From assembly GCA_040755755.1 (NCBI GenBank), contig JBFLZW010000080.1, positions 1 through 20,855 on the forward strand: 20,855 nt of DNA, read 5' to 3'. The position numbers and the translations under genes are program-made. The notes beneath the pieces are model-generated. The model searched no databases and was not told the origin of the DNA. It saw only the letters and a list, made by a program, of their open reading frames with translations. Positions 360 through 20,855 of this stretch are shown piece after piece. This DNA comes from a bacterium. GTDB taxonomy: Bacteria; SZUA-182; DTGQ01. The number at the start of each line of letters is the position of its first letter. The first letter of the stretch is position 1.

Positions 360-3300
360 TCAATGTTTCCTCATACCCCTGCCCCTCCCCCTGTCAGGAT
401 CAAAAACCCGCCTGAATCCCCTGAGCGAATTGATAAAGCATCCAGTCTTCCCCACATCAGGAGTTTCGCCCTCATTACCATCAGGTGATGCCTTCTCCTC
501 CTCCCCATCCCCCGGCAGCAAATTATTCGGACTCGCTGCCGACTCTTTCCCCGCCTGAAGACCGGAGAAGTGGTAGACTTTGATCTCGATCGCAGGGGGA
601 ACAGTGTCATTGTGGTTCACCCGTGAACCTGGGACCATCCAGGCTTCGCCGTCTGGCTGGACGTTGCCCTCGGCATCACAGCCTAGTACCCATCCCGCGT
701 CGGTATGGAGGAAGATACTGAGTTTGCTCACGTCCGTCTGCTCCGGACAGGGAATAAAGACTTTGACCGGGGTCGAGAACACCGTCGGCGGGTCGAAGTT
801 CAGGGCCGTGCCTACGGCCTCCATCCCATCCACAGTCAGAGATGGAAGCTCATCCACAGGTCCGAACGCCGGCGCTACCGGCTCGGAGCTGTTGTAGCAG
901 ATTTTGGCTCCAATCAGGTCGCTGGAGCCAGCCTGAATACCGGTATTATATTCTCCTTCGAGGGCAGGATCGTTCTCTTCCAACGCCCTGGTGTCAGGCA
1001 TGCTGGCCTGAGCGTCGGCATGCTCCTGCTCGGTTTCAATAGTGATAGTAAAGCTGGCCTGGGTCATCCAGTCTTGCCTTCTATCCTTGGCATCAACCAG
1101 GAAGGTGATATCCTGGCCATAGGGGAAATTCCCCAGTTCTTTCTCCTGGGATCTGTCATACACTACCCAGAGTCTGGTTACCCGGGTATCGTCCTTCAGG
1201 GAATTGAGCTTTACTGTCCTTACAACATCGGTACTGCTCAGGTCCCGTTCATAGGGCGCACCATCACCAGCAATTATCGTAAACTTGACGCTGGTTGTAT
1301 CCGTGAGGTCTATTCCATCCTGATCTTCAAGGAGAACGCAGAAGGAGGTATTATCGGGAATGCGTGCATTTTCACTATCCCCTGCCTTGGAGCGTTTGAG
1401 ACTTTTCTTTCCCTCAGGAATATTTTTCTTCACCTTCGGGGGAGTAGGTAGTGGAGATGTATCATCATTAAGAGTAGTTCCATTGAGGTATTCCTCACGG
1501 TTACTCCAGCCGTCATGGTCAAGGTCGCCATCCGGCCCGTCGATTCCTGCTGCGCTGAGAGGGCTTAATGCATATGCAACTTCCCACCCATCGGAAAAGC
1601 CGTCAGAATCCGTGTCGGAAGAGCCAGGCTCGGTGCCCAGGGCAAACTCCTGAAGATTGCTCAGCCCGTCATTGTCTGCATCCTCGGTGGGGTTGCTCAC
1701 TCCCTTGGCAATTTCCCAATCATCGGCCATCTGATCGGCATCATTATCGTTAATCACCACCGAGGCCGGGCTCAGCGGGTTACCTGCCGCATCGGTGATG
1801 CCGCTTATAGTCAGGGTATAGATTTTCCCGGCTGGGATGGAAGACAGGGACAGGCGGTAGGTGCTGCCGCTGAGGCAGGCAATATCATTCGATTCACCAG
1901 AGCTGGCAAAGCTTAAAGAAGGACTGAAGCTATAGCGGGCTTCATTCGTAACTCCTGCTAAGCTTGCCTCGCTGTAGGTGATATCGATTGTCTTATTGCT
2001 GAAATCAACCACAGGATGCCCCTGGATAGAGGGTGCAGTATTATCCACACTGAACAGGTATCCGGCATGAGATTCCACCATGTTGCCAGCCCGGTCCGAT
2101 CCCATGAACAGAATCGAGGGTGCTCCCTCATATCCTGAAGGTATGGTAATAGAGTGAACCCATACCTTGCTATCCCCTGTGGCAGTCATATTTGCGGTTA
2201 CCACATCCGCTGCTGCGTAGGTGACCGTCAATTGGGGCGTATCCGATATCTCCTCGCTCAGGGTTGCAGTTATTTCAACCTCATCCTGAGGCCGGTATGG
2301 GCCGGGCTTACTCAACGACAGGGCCACTTCGGGTGCTGTGGTATCAACAGTAATATGCAGCTCTGGAGAAGGATCCGAGACATTGCCTGCTGCATCGATC
2401 TGTCTTGCGGTAATCACATGGGCTCCGGCAGACAGGGCTATATCCAGCGAAAACCCGATGCTTGATACCATGCCGGTAGCCCCGCTCATGGCAATGCCAT
2501 TATCATACAGTCGTACCATTGCCAGGTCCTCGCCGGAACCCGTAATAGTCAGTCCGGATGTATTTCGGGTTACATTATCACTATCGCTGATTCCAGAGTC
2601 ATCGTCTGCTGCCAGATCCATATCTGCTGGTGCAGAAGGAGCTGTGGTATCAAGAATAATAGATGAACTATCATTGGGATTAGTCCCGGCAAGGTATTCC
2701 TCACGGTTACTCCAGCCGTCATGGTCAAGGTCGCCATCCGGGCCATCGATTCCTGCTGCGCTGAGAGGGCTTAATGCATATGCAACTTCCCACCCATCGG
2801 AAAAGCCGTCAGAATCCGTGTCGGAAGAGCCAGGCTCGGTGCCCAGGGTAAACTCCTGAAGATTGGTCAGCCCGTCATTGTCTGCATCCTCGGTGGGGTT
2901 GCTCACTCCCTTGGCAATTTCCCAATCATCGGCCATCTGATCGGCATCATTATCGTTAATCACCACCGAGGCCGGGCTCAGCGGGTTACCTGCCGCATCG
3001 GTGATGCCGCTTATAGTCAGGGTATAGATTTTCCCGGCTGGGATGGAAGACAGGGACAGGCGGTAGGTGCTGCCGCTGAGGCAGGCAATATCATTCGATT
3101 CACCAGAGCTGGCAAAGCTTAAAGAAGGACTGAAGCTATAGCGGGCTTCATTCGTAACTCCTGCTAAGCTTGCCTCGCTGTAGGTGATATCGATTGTCTT
3201 ATTGCTGAAATCAACCACAGGATGCCCCTGGATAGAGGGTGCAGTATTATCCACACTGAACAGGTATCCGGCATGAGATTCCACCATGTTGCCAGCCCGG

Positions 3301-4538
3301 TCCGATCCCATGAACAGAATCGAGGGTGCTCCCTCATATCCTGAAGGTATGGTAATAGAGTGAACCCATACCTTGCTATCCCCTGTGGCAGTCATATTTG
3401 CGGTTACCACATCCGCTGCTGCGTAGGTGACCGTCAATTGGGGCGTATCCGATATCTCCTCGCTCAGGGTTGCAGTTATTTCAACCTCATCCTGAGGCCG
3501 GTATGGGCCGGGCTTACTCAACGACAGGGCCACTTCGGGTGCTGTGGTATCAACAGTAATATGCAGCTCTGGAGAAGGATCCGAGACATTGCCTGCTGCA
3601 TCGATCTGTCTTGCGGTAATCACATGGGCTCCGGCAGACAGGGCTATATCCAGCGAAAACCCGATGCTTGATACCATGCCGGTAGCCCCGCTCATGGCAA
3701 TGCCATTATCATACAGTCGTACCATTGCCAGGTCCTCGCCGGAACCCGTAATAGTCAGTCCGGATGTATTTCGGGTTACATTATCACTATCGCTGATTCC
3801 AGAGTCATCGTCTGCTGCCAGATCCATATCTGCTGGTGCAGAAGGAGCTGTGGTATCAAGAATAATATCTGTATTATCGGCAAGGTTATTATTGGATGGC
3901 AGTAACAAATAGCAGATACTTCCACTGTCATTACCCAGTGTCGCACCAATGGAAAGCGTAAGAGAGGTTACGTTGAGATCATTGGTCGTATCGCCTGTCT
4001 GAATTACATAATTTACATTTTTACTGGTCAGGGAGGTGAAGGGTGTTATTTCGGCTATATGGCCAGTATTCAGGGTAACAATCAGGTTGCCGTTTGCCAG
4101 CGTCACTGGTTCTGAAAAATTTATGGTAATGGGAATATCTTCCCCGACCGTAAAGAGGCCATTATATGGTGAAGTAATACCTGTTATTTTGATAGGTCTT
4201 ACCTCATTGGAATATTCACTCTCAAGCCCCTGGGTATCATAAGCGGTAACAGCAAAGCGGTAACTTTGCGTATCGCTTAAACCGGTAAGTGTGTAACTGG
4301 TGACTTTACCTGCATCGATTGGCGAATTGCCTTCCACCGCTCCTGTTCCATCATACGGGCTGCCAGCAGAACCAGTGGAATAATAAATCTTATAACCGGC
4401 AATGTCCGGTTCGGAGTTTTCGCTCCACTCAAGGGTAACATCCATCGTGTAGGCCAATGGTATATGGCAGAAGAGGAAGATAACAGTAGCAACCAGAATC
4501 ATCATCCAGGGCAGTTTGAAATTCAGCGCGCTTCTCAT
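360..4538 (-). CDS. Large exported FN3/Ig-like protein with Ca-loop repeats and a long internal duplication
   Basis: A 1392-residue protein that is probably extracellular. Residues 1-30 are a signal peptide (basic start, then a long hydrophobic stretch). Residues about 32-115 form a fibronectin type III-like domain (EPDIAGYKIYYS, then a SYRFAVTAYD strand). About 118-222 is an Ig-like domain. Residues about 225-616 and 627-1018 are two almost identical 392-residue blocks. Each holds Ig-like modules introduced by DTTAP, then aspartate-rich loops such as DADNDGLTN, DTDSDGFSD and DLDHDGWSN, typical of thrombospondin type 3 calcium sites. After 1018 comes a Pro/Lys linker, more beta-rich sequence, and a Cys-Phe-Ile motif close to the C terminus. 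The start is supported by AGGAGA eight bases upstream. No PEP-CTERM tag is present. A role as adhesin or matrix protein is inference; no enzymatic motif was seen. Confidence 0.85.
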   Translation of the reverse strand: MRSALNFKLPWMMILVATVIFLFCHIPLAYTMDVTLEWSENSEPDIAGYKIYYSTGSAGSPYDGTGAVEGNSPIDAGKVTSYTLTGLSDTQSYRFAVTAYDTQGLESEYSNEVRPIKITGITSPYNGLFTVGEDIPITINFSEPVTLANGNLIVTLNTGHIAEITPFTSLTSKNVNYVIQTGDTTNDLNVTSLTLSIGATLGNDSGSICYLLLPSNNNLADNTDIILDTTAPSAPADMDLAADDDSGISDSDNVTRNTSGLTITGSGEDLAMVRLYDNGIAMSGATGMVSSIGFSLDIALSAGAHVITARQIDAAGNVSDPSPELHITVDTTAPEVALSLSKPGPYRPQDEVEITATLSEEISDTPQLTVTYAAADVVTANMTATGDSKVWVHSITIPSGYEGAPSILFMGSDRAGNMVESHAGYLFSVDNTAPSIQGHPVVDFSNKTIDITYSEASLAGVTNEARYSFSPSLSFASSGESNDIACLSGSTYRLSLSSIPAGKIYTLTISGITDAAGNPLSPASVVINDNDADQMADDWEIAKGVSNPTEDADNDGLTNLQEFTLGTEPGSSDTDSDGFSDGWEVAYALSPLSAAGIDGPDGDLDHDGWSNREEYLAGTNPNDSSSIILDTTAPSAPADMDLAADDDSGISDSDNVTRNTSGLTITGSGEDLAMVRLYDNGIAMSGATGMVSSIGFSLDIALSAGAHVITARQIDAAGNVSDPSPELHITVDTTAPEVALSLSKPGPYRPQDEVEITATLSEEISDTPQLTVTYAAADVVTANMTATGDSKVWVHSITIPSGYEGAPSILFMGSDRAGNMVESHAGYLFSVDNTAPSIQGHPVVDFSNKTIDITYSEASLAGVTNEARYSFSPSLSFASSGESNDIACLSGSTYRLSLSSIPAGKIYTLTISGITDAAGNPLSPASVVINDNDADQMADDWEIAKGVSNPTEDADNDGLSNLQEFALGTEPGSSDTDSDGFSDGWEVAYALSPLSAAGIDGPDGDLDHDGWSNREEYLNGTTLNDDTSPLPTPPKVKKNIPEGKKSLKRSKAGDSENARIPDNTSFCVLLEDQDGIDLTDTTSVKFTIIAGDGAPYERDLSSTDVVRTVKLNSLKDDTRVTRLWVVYDRSQEKELGNFPYGQDITFLVDAKDRRQDWMTQASFTITIETEQEHADAQASMPDTRALEENDPALEGEYNTGIQAGSSDLIGAKICYNSSEPVAPAFGPVDELPSLTVDGMEAVGTALNFDPPTVFSTPVKVFIPCPEQTDVSKLSIFLHTDAGWVLGCDAEGNVQPDGEAWMVPGSRVNHNDTVPPAIEIKVYHFSGLQAGKESAASPNNLLPGDGEEEKASPDGNEGETPDVGKTGCFINSLRGFRRVFDPDRGRGRGMRKH
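1486..2661 (-). repeat. Internal tandem duplication, second copy in the protein
   Basis: This 1176-base block is copied at 2692-3867, offset by exactly 1206 bases (402 codons), so the reading frame is kept. By eye I find four base differences between copies, all between about 1535 and 1665. The other roughly 1000 bases appear identical. Confidence 0.9.
2692..3867 (-). repeat. Internal tandem duplication, first copy in the protein
   Basis: Partner of the block at 1486-2661, covering residues about 225-616. Thirty bases separate the two copies (2662-2691). They encode a short linker (AGTNPNDSSS) that has a diverged counterpart after the other copy (NGTTLNDDTS). Confidence 0.9.
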
Positions 4539-5173: not shown

Positions 5174-7273
5174 ATGAACATATACTCCATTCCAACATTA
5201 GTGAATTGCATATCCATTCCTCTCTTTGCTTCTCTTGTCCTGTACCAGGGGCGGCGACATTTTGCCAATAAGGTCTTTTTCCTGGCTATGCTCAGTGTCG
5301 GTGTCATGGAATTTGGTAACTTTATGGTTCTGAATTCTCAATGTGCAACGGGAATACTGTATTGGAGTCGAATCAGTCTGGTGGGCTGCTGCCTTATCCC
5401 TGCAAACTGGTCCTTGTTCAGCACGGTTTTTGCCAGAAGCAGTTATGAGATAATACCGAAAAGATCAATAATTATTATTTCTTTTGTCTATATCTTCTCA
5501 TTTTGTTTTCTCTTTTTCATCCCCTCCGACCTTTTCATTTACCTGCCATCCACCTCTTTGAAGGAAAATATTATCCTTTTAGGAACCGTAGGACGAATCT
5601 TCACCGCTTTTCTTCTCCTGACTATTGCCTTTATCCTGACCAATCTGGAAATGGTTTACCGGGATTCGGGGAACAAGAAGTGGAAGATAAAATACAGCAT
5701 CATAGGGTTATTCACCGCCTTTACCTATTACGTTTATCTTGTCAGCCGGATAGCCCTTTTCCAGTTTATGGATCTGACCTATCTTCCGGTTGGCTCGATA
5801 GTTATTTTTATCTGCCTGTCACTTTTAGCCTTCAGTTTTATCAGACATCGATTGATGAATGTCGAAATATTCGTTTCCCGGCAGGTGTTTTACGGATCTT
5901 TTACCCTTTTAGCGATCAGTGTTTATCTTATTCTGGTAGGTTTTACCGGCGAATTGATGAAAATTATCGGGATAAATTTTAACCTGGTATTTTACCCGGT
6001 TCTTGTTCTGGTAAGCCTCGTGGCCTTATCGGTCTTTTGTTTATCGGAAAAAAACAGGAACACGGCCAAGAGGTTCATTGACCGGCATTTTTACCGGAAC
6101 AAGTTTGACTACCGGTTCGAGTGGATTGAGCTAACCAACAGAATCAGCTCCGTTACCGATCTGAATGATTTATTGGTAAAGTTTATGGAACTGATAGCTG
6201 AAACAATGTGTGTGAGTGAAATCATGGTTTGGCTGTATGATGACGATGATAAAAAATTCCACGTATCGGGTTCCCGGCATCTGCCGAAATCCGAAATGGT
6301 GATTGACAAAGATAGCCCTTTAATCAAGTACCTGGAGGAGAAAGCCGGGCCCTTTTCCATTTCCCTGAGTCGCGGAGTGTCTGACAGCAAATTGGCACAC
6401 GTGTACAGCAGGTATAAGGAGGAAATCTGGAACAGATACAGAGTCTCCACTATCAGTCCCCTGATAGTCAAAGATGAGCTTATCGGTTTTCTTACTTTAG
6501 GGGAGGAAGTAACCGGAGCAGTTTATAACTATGAAGACTACGATATGCTCAAGACCATGTGTCATCAGGCAGCAAGCGCCATTATGAATATCAAACTGTC
6601 CGAACGCATTGCCTATGCCAAGGGAATGGCTGTAATGAATAAAGTTTCAGCTTTTGTCATCCACGATTTGAAAAATTTCGTTTCAATGCTCTCCCTGATA
6701 GTTCAAAACGCCTCACATAATATGGATAACGTTGAATTTCAAAAAGATGTTTTGGAAACAATTTCAAAGACAATAGGAAATATGAATAAACTCATGGTCA
6801 GGATTTCCAGCCCCATCGAGGAAATAGTGCTCAATAAGACAAAAGTCAGTCTTACCGCATTGGTGAAGGATGCTATCCAAAGTACCGGTTTAGGCATGGA
6901 CGGGATTGAGGTAGCCGAGGATTATGCAGATTTGCCGCAAGTATATCTGGACCATGAAAAAATCCAAAGTGTAATCCGTAATATCATTATTAACGCCCAG
7001 GAGTCGCTGAAAGGAAGCGGAAAAGTTTCAATTTCGACCTTTTCCAGGGACAGGAATGCAATCATTGAAGTAAAAGACAATGGGCCTGGAATACCGCGGG
7101 AATTTTTGAACAATAAGCTCTTTAAACCTTTCCAGACAACGAAAAGGAAGGGACTGGGAATCGGCCTCTATCAATGCAGGCAAATTATTGCAGCCCATAA
7201 CGGCAGGATAGAGGTGGAAAGCGAAGAAGGAATGGGCGCCAGTTTCCGGATATATTTACCTGCTGAGAATTAA
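5174..7273 (+). CDS. prsK: PEP-CTERM system sensor histidine kinase PrsK
   Basis: A 699-residue membrane sensor kinase, expected to autophosphorylate on His and pass phosphate to PrsR. Residues 1-300 contain about eight hydrophobic segments, the multi-helix N terminus of the PrsK family. A GAF-like domain follows (about 320-480, ending before AYAKGMAVMNKVSAF). The dimerisation/phosphoacceptor box is FVIHDLKNFVSML with His497. The ATPase domain has the N box NIIINAQES, the G1 box VKDNGPGIP (Asp635) and the G2 box KGLGIGLYQCRQI (from Gly660). HDLKN and the many N-terminal helices are characteristic of PrsK. GGGG at 5161-5164, nine bases before the ATG, is the likely ribosome binding site. It is first in a same-strand run with a PEP-CTERM gene and prsR. 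The signal it senses is unknown. Confidence 0.9.
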   Translation: MNIYSIPTLVNCISIPLFASLVLYQGRRHFANKVFFLAMLSVGVMEFGNFMVLNSQCATGILYWSRISLVGCCLIPANWSLFSTVFARSSYEIIPKRSIIIISFVYIFSFCFLFFIPSDLFIYLPSTSLKENIILLGTVGRIFTAFLLLTIAFILTNLEMVYRDSGNKKWKIKYSIIGLFTAFTYYVYLVSRIALFQFMDLTYLPVGSIVIFICLSLLAFSFIRHRLMNVEIFVSRQVFYGSFTLLAISVYLILVGFTGELMKIIGINFNLVFYPVLVLVSLVALSVFCLSEKNRNTAKRFIDRHFYRNKFDYRFEWIELTNRISSVTDLNDLLVKFMELIAETMCVSEIMVWLYDDDDKKFHVSGSRHLPKSEMVIDKDSPLIKYLEEKAGPFSISLSRGVSDSKLAHVYSRYKEEIWNRYRVSTISPLIVKDELIGFLTLGEEVTGAVYNYEDYDMLKTMCHQAASAIMNIKLSERIAYAKGMAVMNKVSAFVIHDLKNFVSMLSLIVQNASHNMDNVEFQKDVLETISKTIGNMNKLMVRISSPIEEIVLNKTKVSLTALVKDAIQSTGLGMDGIEVAEDYADLPQVYLDHEKIQSVIRNIIINAQESLKGSGKVSISTFSRDRNAIIEVKDNGPGIPREFLNNKLFKPFQTTKRKGLGIGLYQCRQIIAAHNGRIEVESEEGMGASFRIYLPAEN

Positions 7274-7309: not shown

Positions 7310-8083
7310 ATGAAAGGAGAAAAAGCAGTGGAAACCACAAAAGTATGTCTATCGTATGGCATTATTGGTATGATTATGCTGTTTGTCAGTGTAGTCCAGG
7401 TAGGAGCAGTTCCAACTCTCCAACTCTATATGCCGGATGGTATCTATGCACAATCAAGGAAGATCAATGGAGTAGAGATTACCGATAGCTGGCTGACTTT
7501 CCAGGATCCTTTCAGCCTTGTGGTTGCCGGAGCAACTCAACCTGCCAGGGTCGATGTAATCAGGGATGTAACTCTCTGGATTGCCATTCAGGAGCAGGAT
7601 TATCTCAATAATCCATCTGGTTCTGTTATCGTTCGAAATTCCTCCGGAAGTATCATGAACCCGAGTGGTCCATTTCAATTTGGGACTCCTGATCCCTTAT
7701 CGCCACATGGCATCTATGATGCCTATTATCTGGAATATCGATTACCTGACCTCGAGGTTGCCAGTGCTGGCGAGTCTGTCTACGATTATAACACCAATTT
7801 CGATCCCGATAATCCAGGTACCGCTGACACGGGGGATCTTCAATTTTATACGGTTTCTTATTCAGGCTTCTTCTGGCTGCATCTGGACCTGAGCGGAGTC
7901 GCGTGGGACTTGGACGGAAGGGGGAGAAGTTGGGAGAGAGTTTCTCCGTATTCACACGATGCTGATGGACCTGGTCCAGGAGGTCCCGCTGTTCCTGAGC
8001 CTTCCACGTGCTGGCTTTTTATCTTTGGTGCAATCTGTTTGGCAGGAAAAGGAATATTGAGTGCAAAAAAATTTTTGGCCTGA
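7310..8083 (+). CDS. PEP-CTERM sorted exported protein, choice-of-anchor N-like
   Basis: A 257-residue exported protein. Residues 1-34 form a signal peptide (hydrophobic GIIGMIMLFVSVVQVGA). The mature part begins VPTLQLYMPDG, is beta-rich, and has a PHGIYDAYYLEY motif. Both recall the choice-of-anchor N family of PEP-CTERM proteins, but I could not confirm that assignment. Residues 228-257 are a sorting tag: VPEPST, a helix (CWLFIFGAICLAG), then a basic end (KKFLA). An exosortase would process this tag at the envelope. The gene starts 36 bases after prsK and ends 70 bases before prsR, so co-transcription is likely. The start is uncertain: the ATG at 7310 has AAAGG upstream, but GTG at 7328 is in frame and has AAAGGAG at a good distance. 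Its position between the kinase and regulator genes is notable. Confidence 0.85.
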   Translation: MKGEKAVETTKVCLSYGIIGMIMLFVSVVQVGAVPTLQLYMPDGIYAQSRKINGVEITDSWLTFQDPFSLVVAGATQPARVDVIRDVTLWIAIQEQDYLNNPSGSVIVRNSSGSIMNPSGPFQFGTPDPLSPHGIYDAYYLEYRLPDLEVASAGESVYDYNTNFDPDNPGTADTGDLQFYTVSYSGFFWLHLDLSGVAWDLDGRGRSWERVSPYSHDADGPGPGGPAVPEPSTCWLFIFGAICLAGKGILSAKKFLA

Positions 8084-8153: not shown

Positions 8154-9524
8154 ATGAGTAAGCCTAAATTACTTGTTGTTGACGATGAAGAATATATTTG
8201 CAAACAGCTCAAGTGGGGGCTTAATAGCGAATATGAAGTTATTATAGCTTATGAGAGTAAAGATGCTCTGACAAAGTTCAGTGAGTGTAAACCGGATATC
8301 GTAGCGCTTGACTTGAATTTATCTCCTGCGGATGATCATGAGCAGGGTTTTAAGGTGCTCGAAGAAATCATCCTGGGTGACCCCCACGCAAAAGTTATCA
8401 TGATAACCGGTCACAATGGCAAAGAGAGTGCCATAAATTCCTTACGGCTCGGTGCCTATGATTATTATGTCAAACCTATAGACCTGAACGAATTGAAAGT
8501 CATTCTCAAGCGTGCCCTCTATATCAGGATGTTGGAGATGGAAAACGAGCACCTGCAAACCCGAACCATTGAAGATGGGGAGTCGTTTGGCATCCTGGGT
8601 AATTGCAGGAAGATCAGAGAAGTCAACAAGGTGATACGGAAAGTGGCGAAAACGGATATAGCGGTCCTTATTCATGGAGAAAGTGGAACGGGAAAAGAAC
8701 TGGTAGCTCGTGCTATTCACCGGCAGAGCAACAGGTCAAATGAAGCATTTATCCCGATCGACTCCGGGGCAATCCCGGAAACGCTCCTGGAAAGTGAATT
8801 ATTCGGCCATGAGAAAGGGGCATTTACCGATGCTTATGGCAAAAAAATTGGGAAAATCGAGCTTGCTCATAAGGGGACCCTGTTCTTTGATGAGATAGCG
8901 GAATTGCCACTTAATTTACAGGTCAAGTTATTGAGATTTTTACAGGAGAAAAAGATACAGCGGGTTGGCGGGATTGAATTCATACCCATAGATGTGAGAG
9001 TTATCGCCGCCAGTAACAAGAACCTGGAGCAGGAAATACAAAAATCAAATTTCCGCGAAGATATTTTTTACCGGCTCAATGGAATAACAATTGAATTGCC
9101 TCCGTTGCGGGAAAGAGAGGATGACGTTATCGTAATAGCTGACGCTTTGCTGGAACAATTTTGTAAAGAGATGGGAATAGCTGGAAAAAAGTTGAGCCCC
9201 CAATCGGTTAAGTCTATCAAGGGATATGGATGGCCAGGAAATGTAAGGGAATTGGAAAACAGGTTAAGAAGGGCACTCGCTCTATCGACCGGCAAGTACA
9301 TCATGCCTGAAGATTTAGGCATTGGTCATGGCCGGAGCGCGAGGGAAGTAAAATTGACCCTTAAGGATGCCCGTGAGAGGATGGAGAAAGAGATGCTCCT
9401 CAGCAACCTGAAAAAATATCATGGCAATCTCTCGAAAGTGTCAAAGAGCCTCGGTGTGGCACGATCTACCGTGTATGATCTTATGGATAAATACGGCATT
9501 GATTATAATATAACCGATCGTTAA
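8154..9524 (+). CDS. prsR: PEP-CTERM-box response regulator PrsR, sigma-54 activator
   Basis: A 456-residue NtrC-type regulator, the partner of PrsK. The receiver domain (about 1-125) has acidic residues Asp10/Asp11, phosphoacceptor Asp53 (IVALDLNLS), a conserved Thr (MITG) and Lys (YVKPID). The AAA+ domain (about 145-380) has Walker A GESGTGKE (175-182), a sigma-54 contact loop GAFTDA (222-227), Walker B LFFDE (Asp246-Glu247) and FREDIFYRLN. The C-terminal Fis-type helix-turn-helix (about 423-452) includes NLSKVSKSLGVARSTVYDLM. The loop differs from the usual GAFTGA by Asp226 in place of Gly. AGGAGG six bases before the ATG fixes the start. Known PrsR proteins act with RpoN on genes of the PEP-CTERM and exopolysaccharide system; the targets here are inferred. 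Confidence 0.9.
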   Translation: MSKPKLLVVDDEEYICKQLKWGLNSEYEVIIAYESKDALTKFSECKPDIVALDLNLSPADDHEQGFKVLEEIILGDPHAKVIMITGHNGKESAINSLRLGAYDYYVKPIDLNELKVILKRALYIRMLEMENEHLQTRTIEDGESFGILGNCRKIREVNKVIRKVAKTDIAVLIHGESGTGKELVARAIHRQSNRSNEAFIPIDSGAIPETLLESELFGHEKGAFTDAYGKKIGKIELAHKGTLFFDEIAELPLNLQVKLLRFLQEKKIQRVGGIEFIPIDVRVIAASNKNLEQEIQKSNFREDIFYRLNGITIELPPLREREDDVIVIADALLEQFCKEMGIAGKKLSPQSVKSIKGYGWPGNVRELENRLRRALALSTGKYIMPEDLGIGHGRSAREVKLTLKDARERMEKEMLLSNLKKYHGNLSKVSKSLGVARSTVYDLMDKYGIDYNITDR

Positions 9525-20475: not shown

Positions 20476-20734
20476 GGCTTATTTCTCACTTGTGTTTATT
20501 TTATCCTTTTGAAGTGAACCGGTATATCCTCCACTGGTAATATCCTCTATAATGCCATGATTTCAACGAGCTTCCTGGCTTCCAGAGTAACAGCCCGGAG
20601 ACACCGATTCAAAGACTTAAAGGAAGAAATGAAGTTTCAGTATATAAAACAATTATACTCTCAAATTTCAGGGATTTGAAGAACCATTTTCTCAAAAACC
20701 ACCTACTACAGGTGCAGAATGGTGGCATTCTGAT
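20476..20734. other. Intergenic region upstream of the HEPN/MNT pair
   Basis: I see no gene here. It should contain the promoter of the minus-strand toxin-antitoxin pair, but I could not pick out a convincing one. The non-coding stretch continues to the probable insertion sequence end at 20735. Confidence 0.5.
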
Positions 20735-20791
20735 TGTGATAATCTAAAATTCCCCCATTTTAGGGGTTTGTGACAACGCAAAATTCCCCCA
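20735..20791 (+). mobile_element. Possible left end of an IS21-type insertion sequence
   Basis: Two 23-base direct repeats (20735-20757 and 20769-20791) start 34 bases apart and match at about 19 positions. Each begins TGTGA and ends AAAATTCCCCCA. A TG terminus followed by several tandem copies of an end repeat is characteristic of IS21-family elements, where they bind transposase. The element would continue beyond the right edge. Without its genes this remains tentative. Confidence 0.4.
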
Positions 20792-20817
20792 CCCCTGACT
20801 GAAGTTTCCGGTATTAT

Positions 20818-20855
20818 ATGGGCAGAAAAAAACTAAAGACCATGATACCGGAGGC
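20818..20855 (+). CDS. Possible start of a transposase gene (partial)
   Basis: ATG at 20818 opens a frame that reads MGRKKLKTMIPEA up to the window edge. It follows the tandem end repeats by 26 bases, as an istA-type gene might. There is no good ribosome binding site before it, and GGAGG at 20850-20854 could instead serve a start beyond the window. A 7-base inverted repeat (CCGGTAT at 20808, ATACCGG at 20845) brackets the start region. Thirteen codons are too few to identify a family. Confidence 0.25.
   Translation, partial: MGRKKLKTMIPE

Follow-up and report, generated by a model that had tools for sequence, protein, structure and literature searches.

The window, that is, the whole stretch of 20,855 nucleotides analyzed here, carries a gene for a secreted multidomain protein of 1392 amino acids (360–4538, minus strand), in which a block of 402 residues has, we consider it likely, genuinely been doubled head to tail and in frame at a PEP-CTERM locus; the identity of the repeat core and the count of two are not established. 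Below, we describe the protein and the layout of its repeat, its genomic neighborhood and relatives, and the signature left by the assembly, which determines how the near-identity of the two copies is to be read.

Domain Architecture of the Repeat-Bearing Protein

The gene was delineated from its open reading frame, from Pfam and NCBIfam matches and from a signal-like leader, MRSALNFKLPWMMILVATVIFLFCHIPLAYTMD, read from the sequence. From the N- to the C-terminus, the protein comprises this leader, an fn3 domain (Pfam: PF00041; residues 33–113; 4200–4442, minus strand), a linking region, two successive Big_13/Ig-like/Big_5-like/TSP3 arrays and a C-terminal domain without a family name (423–1451, minus strand), the reading frame being open through all 1392 residues across both units. 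In unit 1, Big_13 was detected in two stretches (Pfam: PF19077; residues 237–331; 3546–3830), followed by a Big_5-like domain (Pfam: PF13205; residues 444–522; 2973–3209), whose match passes the cut-off only with the whole protein as query, and by TSP3-type acidic repeats (Pfam: PF18884; about residues 530–623; 2670–2951); all three lie on the minus strand and are found again in unit 2. Judging from these domain families, the block is probably a rod-like spacer or stalk that sets the fn3 end apart from the C-terminal domain, and its doubling would yield a longer protein. No surface anchor of known type was found in the protein by Pfam or NCBIfam, and a PDB search returned nothing at E <= 0.001. 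Structure predictions for the unit (mean pLDDT 33.7) and for the C-terminal domain (pLDDT 39.8) were too poor for use.

The C-terminal domain ends in GCFINSL, which is followed by 20 further residues at the protein's C-terminus. A short Cys motif of this kind ends several fn3-bearing secreted proteins of the family (GCFINSL, SCFIMSLP, and ICFITAIRRR), the sites being 423–443 in the window and the C-termini of the proteins at L018:9387–10718, L019:10166–13069, and L021:2200–5268. No family model matched this motif; it is possibly a truncated sorting signal.

Layout of the Tandem Repeat

Pairwise comparison placed two copies of 1176 bp at 1486–2661 and 2692–3867, offset by 1206 bp with zero indels and identical at 1172/1176 positions as assembled. 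The period of 1206 equals 3 x 402, so that the repeat stays in frame as a 402-codon unit, and the near-identical in-frame tandem duplication of 1176 bases described in the original prediction is thus borne out. The alignment, which had been proposed as a check on the mismatch positions, located exactly four, at 1536 (C/G), 1539 (G/A), 1643 (C/T), and 1660 (C/G). They lie near the 3' end in gene sense, within a TSP3-coding part (1536–1660, minus strand), just where about four differences in some 130 bases had been anticipated; two are synonymous (G and D) and two change the residue (A/T and S/T). The stretch of about 1000 identical bases likewise proved to be a core of 1001 bp (1661–2661, identical to 2867–3867; minus strand).

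The two 1176-bp copies are separated by a spacer of 30 bp (2662–2691), which matches 1456–1485 at 19/30 bases, and each of these stretches codes for a TSP3 end (LAGTNPNDSSS and LNGTTLNDDTS). By this resemblance, the true layout is one of two head-to-tail units of 1206 bp on the minus strand, namely unit 1, upstream in gene sense (2662–3867), whose last 30 bp are the spacer, and unit 2, downstream (1456–2661), the spacer being the unit's diverged end. At the junction between them, EEYLAGTNPNDSS runs directly into SIILDTTAPSAP, that is, a TSP3 end into a Big_13 start. The 1206-bp units differ at 15 positions: the final 30 bp hold 11 of these, the adjoining 175 bp hold 4 and the other 1001 bp none. 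The drop from 11/30 to 4/175 is real irrespective of the assembler. In the assembled sequence, the clustering of the four mismatches of the 1176-bp match exceeds chance (P about 0.004 for four random mismatches in a span this short, and P about 0.001 for all four at <=175 bp from one end), its cause being a separate question. At the other end of the core, 126 bp hold no mismatch (0/126 vs 4/175, Fisher P = 0.14).

No further copy or donor paralog of the 1206-bp unit was found in the genome at the DNA level, and the genome's own TSP3 proteins have <50% of residues in common with the unit. Viral contigs scanned for the exact unit sequence held none, and the search of GTDB contigs for named relatives of the unit returned only distant matches, mainly across the TSP3 end.

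The PEP-CTERM Regulatory Locus

The upstream, divergent neighbor of the repeat-bearing gene encodes PrsK, the histidine kinase of the XrtA/PEP-CTERM system (5174–7273, plus strand; TIGR02916, 454.6 bits vs a cut-off of 300). One gene further, for a choice-of-anchor N protein with a PEP-CTERM tail (7310–8083, plus strand; NF038141 and TIGR02595), separates it from that of PrsR, the PEP-CTERM sigma-54 response regulator (8154–9524, plus strand; TIGR02915, 548.8 bits vs 502.6), and both members of the pair thus exceed their curated cut-offs. PrsK and PrsR have been proposed to regulate PEP-CTERM sorting (PMC1569441). The genome encodes two exosortases, and its PEP-CTERM matches above the cut-off number about eleven. 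The repeat-bearing gene is connected with the XrtA/PEP-CTERM (exosortase) system by its place, divergent to PrsK both in the window and in genome G003. Unlike PEP-CTERM proteins, its product is without the PEP-CTERM tail (PEP motif, transmembrane segment, and basic tail): TIGR02595 gave no match in it, and its matches on the contig were confined to 2–73 and 7991–8068. The former (plus strand) is a C-terminal tail whose gene is cut by the contig start. Matches to the sigma-54 promoter consensus were no more than expected by chance, so that control of the repeat-bearing gene by PrsR is unsupported, and an Rfam search of the window returned nothing.

Relatives without the Block

The family comparison set consisted of three other genomes (G001, G002, and G003), with one genome per species. 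The homolog in G002, only 443 aa long, has its fn3 domain joined directly to the C-terminal domain, which is 56% identical to that of the window protein and ends in GCFINSL as well, and it is devoid of the block; its cluster includes an exosortase, EpsI and an XrtA-type chain-length protein. A protein of 967 aa in G003 matches residues 17–229, again without the repeat block, and adjoins its own PrsK divergently, as the window gene does. The same-genus genome G001 is without a close PrsK. Since both G002 and G003, relatives of the same family, are without the block, the sequences are most simply read as an insertion of the block in the window lineage, which would have been doubled afterwards.

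This bears on the recency claimed in the original prediction. The in-frame doubling, in a secreted surface-type protein and absent in relatives, points to an event that is recent on the scale of the family, but the stronger wording, in which the duplication is very recent or conversion still continues, cannot be secured in a k = 127 assembly of the kind described below.

Assembly Signature and Other Tandem Pairs

On contig C22, two gaps of 100 N are directly flanked by exact direct repeats of 127 bp, and an exact 127-bp repeat starts right after a third gap. The right end of the window contig matches the end of C40 along exactly 127 bp, and several other contig ends along 125. Given these repeats at gaps and contig ends, the genome appears to have been assembled from short reads by a de Bruijn method with k = 127, the assembler being judged from k and gap style alone, not by name. 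The last bases of the window (20729–20855) belong to a multicopy element, 105–128 bp of which are common to about ten other contigs, mostly at their ends.

In a repeat census covering 2.01 of the 5.26 Mb of the genome, the longest dispersed exact repeat measured 338 bp, and the five exact repeats of at least 800 bp were all tandem pairs (1001, 960, 876, 863, and 800 bp); mid-core probes for four of these five pairs occurred twice each in the contig stretch. The five cores thus span the narrow range of 800–1001 bp, with none between 338 and 800. The pair of 960 bp lies on C49 (30919–33483, minus strand), in a lipoprotein-like protein of 854 aa that contains a 371-aa unit twice and begins, by eye, with a Big_2-like part; the identical core of this pair is bordered by strongly diverged homologous stretches. 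On C22 (107191–114033, minus strand), a protein of ~2280 aa whose start resembles TolB by eye, and which has numerous Cys/Trp-rich repeats (WCRPCP...WCCPVA), contains the exact pair of 876 bp, with a period of 891. The pair of 863 bp belongs to tandem genes of 366 and 360 aa on C30 (52714–54934, minus strand), in which an indel of 27 bp comes after the identical stretch, together with substitutions that gather toward one end. The exact head-to-tail copy of 800 bp on C18 (9429–11028) extends over chemoreceptor-tail and STAS-like genes and represents either a real duplication or an assembly loop.

Evidently, contigs break at long dispersed repeats, and the assembler writes out a simple loop a single time, so that a read pair linking both copies across the 1001-bp core is unlikely. 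A graph edge traversed twice is identical by construction, and the identity of the core is therefore untrustworthy without long reads. The mismatches that survive such a walk are those chained to unique flanking sequence by identical runs of <127 bp, and the observed runs are of this length: 50, 103, and 16 in the window repeat before the run of 1001, 23, 124, and 43 around the core of 863 on C30, and 116 and 39 beside that of 876 on C22.

Alternative Explanations for the Near-Identity

Most likely, the assembler saw the core as a shared edge, the tail of unit 1 (2662–2866) as a loop and the tail of unit 2 as the exit, and the assembly signature suggests that it wrote the loop out once. In such a graph, the tails and the junction should be supported by reads, and it is the graph walk that would account for a core without any difference and for the count of two, the assembly giving a lower bound of at least two copies in some molecules. 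That a core longer than a read pair is rendered identical, and that survivors must then cluster at the flank, means that the clustered mismatches alone neither demonstrate nor rule out a recent duplication or conversion. With a true divergence of 0.5–1.3%, a model of this collapse left two or more survivors, all of them at a single end, in 24–29% of trials.

Whether the 1001 identical bases are genuine, through a very recent duplication or through conversion of the core by its neighbor that ended ~200 bp before the unit's 3' end, is a question to which we give a little less than an even chance of a positive answer. The mismatch clustering lies far beyond chance, the gradient runs from 0/1001 through 4/175 to 11/30, and the pairs on C49 and C30 also combine identical cores with diverged homologous ends, those on C49 being too diverged for uniform divergence and bubble collapse to yield a core of 960 bp; the sequence there makes real homogenization, or a young core, likely at least in that protein. 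Against genuineness, a de Bruijn walk forces identity upon any core longer than a read pair, and the four mismatches survive exactly where such a walk leaves them. Copies that are older, with scattered differences of ~0.5–1.5% whose bubbles were popped to one consensus except near the unique tail, are a tentative possibility, appreciably short of even. The k = 127 signature, the chaining of the mismatches by runs of <127 and the collapse simulation agree with this history, and metaSPAdes, for instance, is documented to collapse bulges aggressively, with metagenome read pairs spanning <1 kb (PMC8021871); the collapse would nevertheless be a deduction from the assembly signature, and 0/126 at the other end of the core makes a high uniform divergence unlikely.

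A chimera or strain mixture that created a false tandem copy, with no duplication in the genome, is improbable. The exact 800-bp copy on C18, whose length is no multiple of three, interrupts genes, and gaps in C22 have short repeats at their sides, as such an error would have it, but the junction in the window is in frame, and tandem repeats are usually collapsed by assembly, not invented (PMC6868369). As the junction is also a natural domain boundary, with a sequence unlike both flanks, a single-copy artifact seems less likely than an uncertain copy number. The genuine doubling of the block thus remains our preferred reading. Direct repeats with a truly near-identical core would be expected to recombine and thereby to gain or lose units of 402 residues in frame. 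It is doubtful, though a bolder version of this can be entertained, that in this little-known lineage continuing conversion homogenizes neighboring repeats inside genes of secreted proteins over ~0.8–1 kb and that the large secreted proteins on C80 (the window contig), C49, and C22 vary by steps of ~300–400 residues within a population.

Comparison with Known Systems and Implications

The Periscope Proteins, among them SasG, Rib, Sgo_0707, CdrA, and CshA, are defined by an observed variation in repeat number (PMC8201768, PMC9704523). Like them, the window protein would be of surface type, with long tandem repeats in frame whose predicted folded domains are nearly identical as assembled, Big_13 being among the named repeat families. 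Its unit is a multidomain composite of 402 aa, whereas theirs is a single domain of about 50–165 aa; it offers two copies only, from one short-read assembly, and it is not known to be attached to the cell. As for repeats of >50 residues with high DNA identity, the 402-aa unit agrees at 1172/1176 positions as assembled, with a core identity that is untrustworthy; as for a surface stalk, a signal-like leader and Ig-like domains are present, with no known anchor and with the poor structural model noted above. By this comparison, the window protein can be counted as a candidate Periscope Protein, ordinary in kind. The combination of Big_13, Big_5, and TSP3_bac also likens it to the TSP3/Big multidomain secreted proteins of environmental bacteria, as do distant TSP3-type matches in many genomes, but its whole block is near-exactly doubled, and its fn3 and C-terminal domains are those of its own family.

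The case shows how to tell when full identity, broken by differences at only one end, is what the graph of a short-read assembly would give in any event, and the same caution holds for every finding of this type in the genome. The length variation of such proteins has been little studied in uncultured environmental lineages, and if the near-identity is real, the window protein would be a candidate for a matrix or surface protein of variable length, linked to the exosortase system, in a lineage of this kind.
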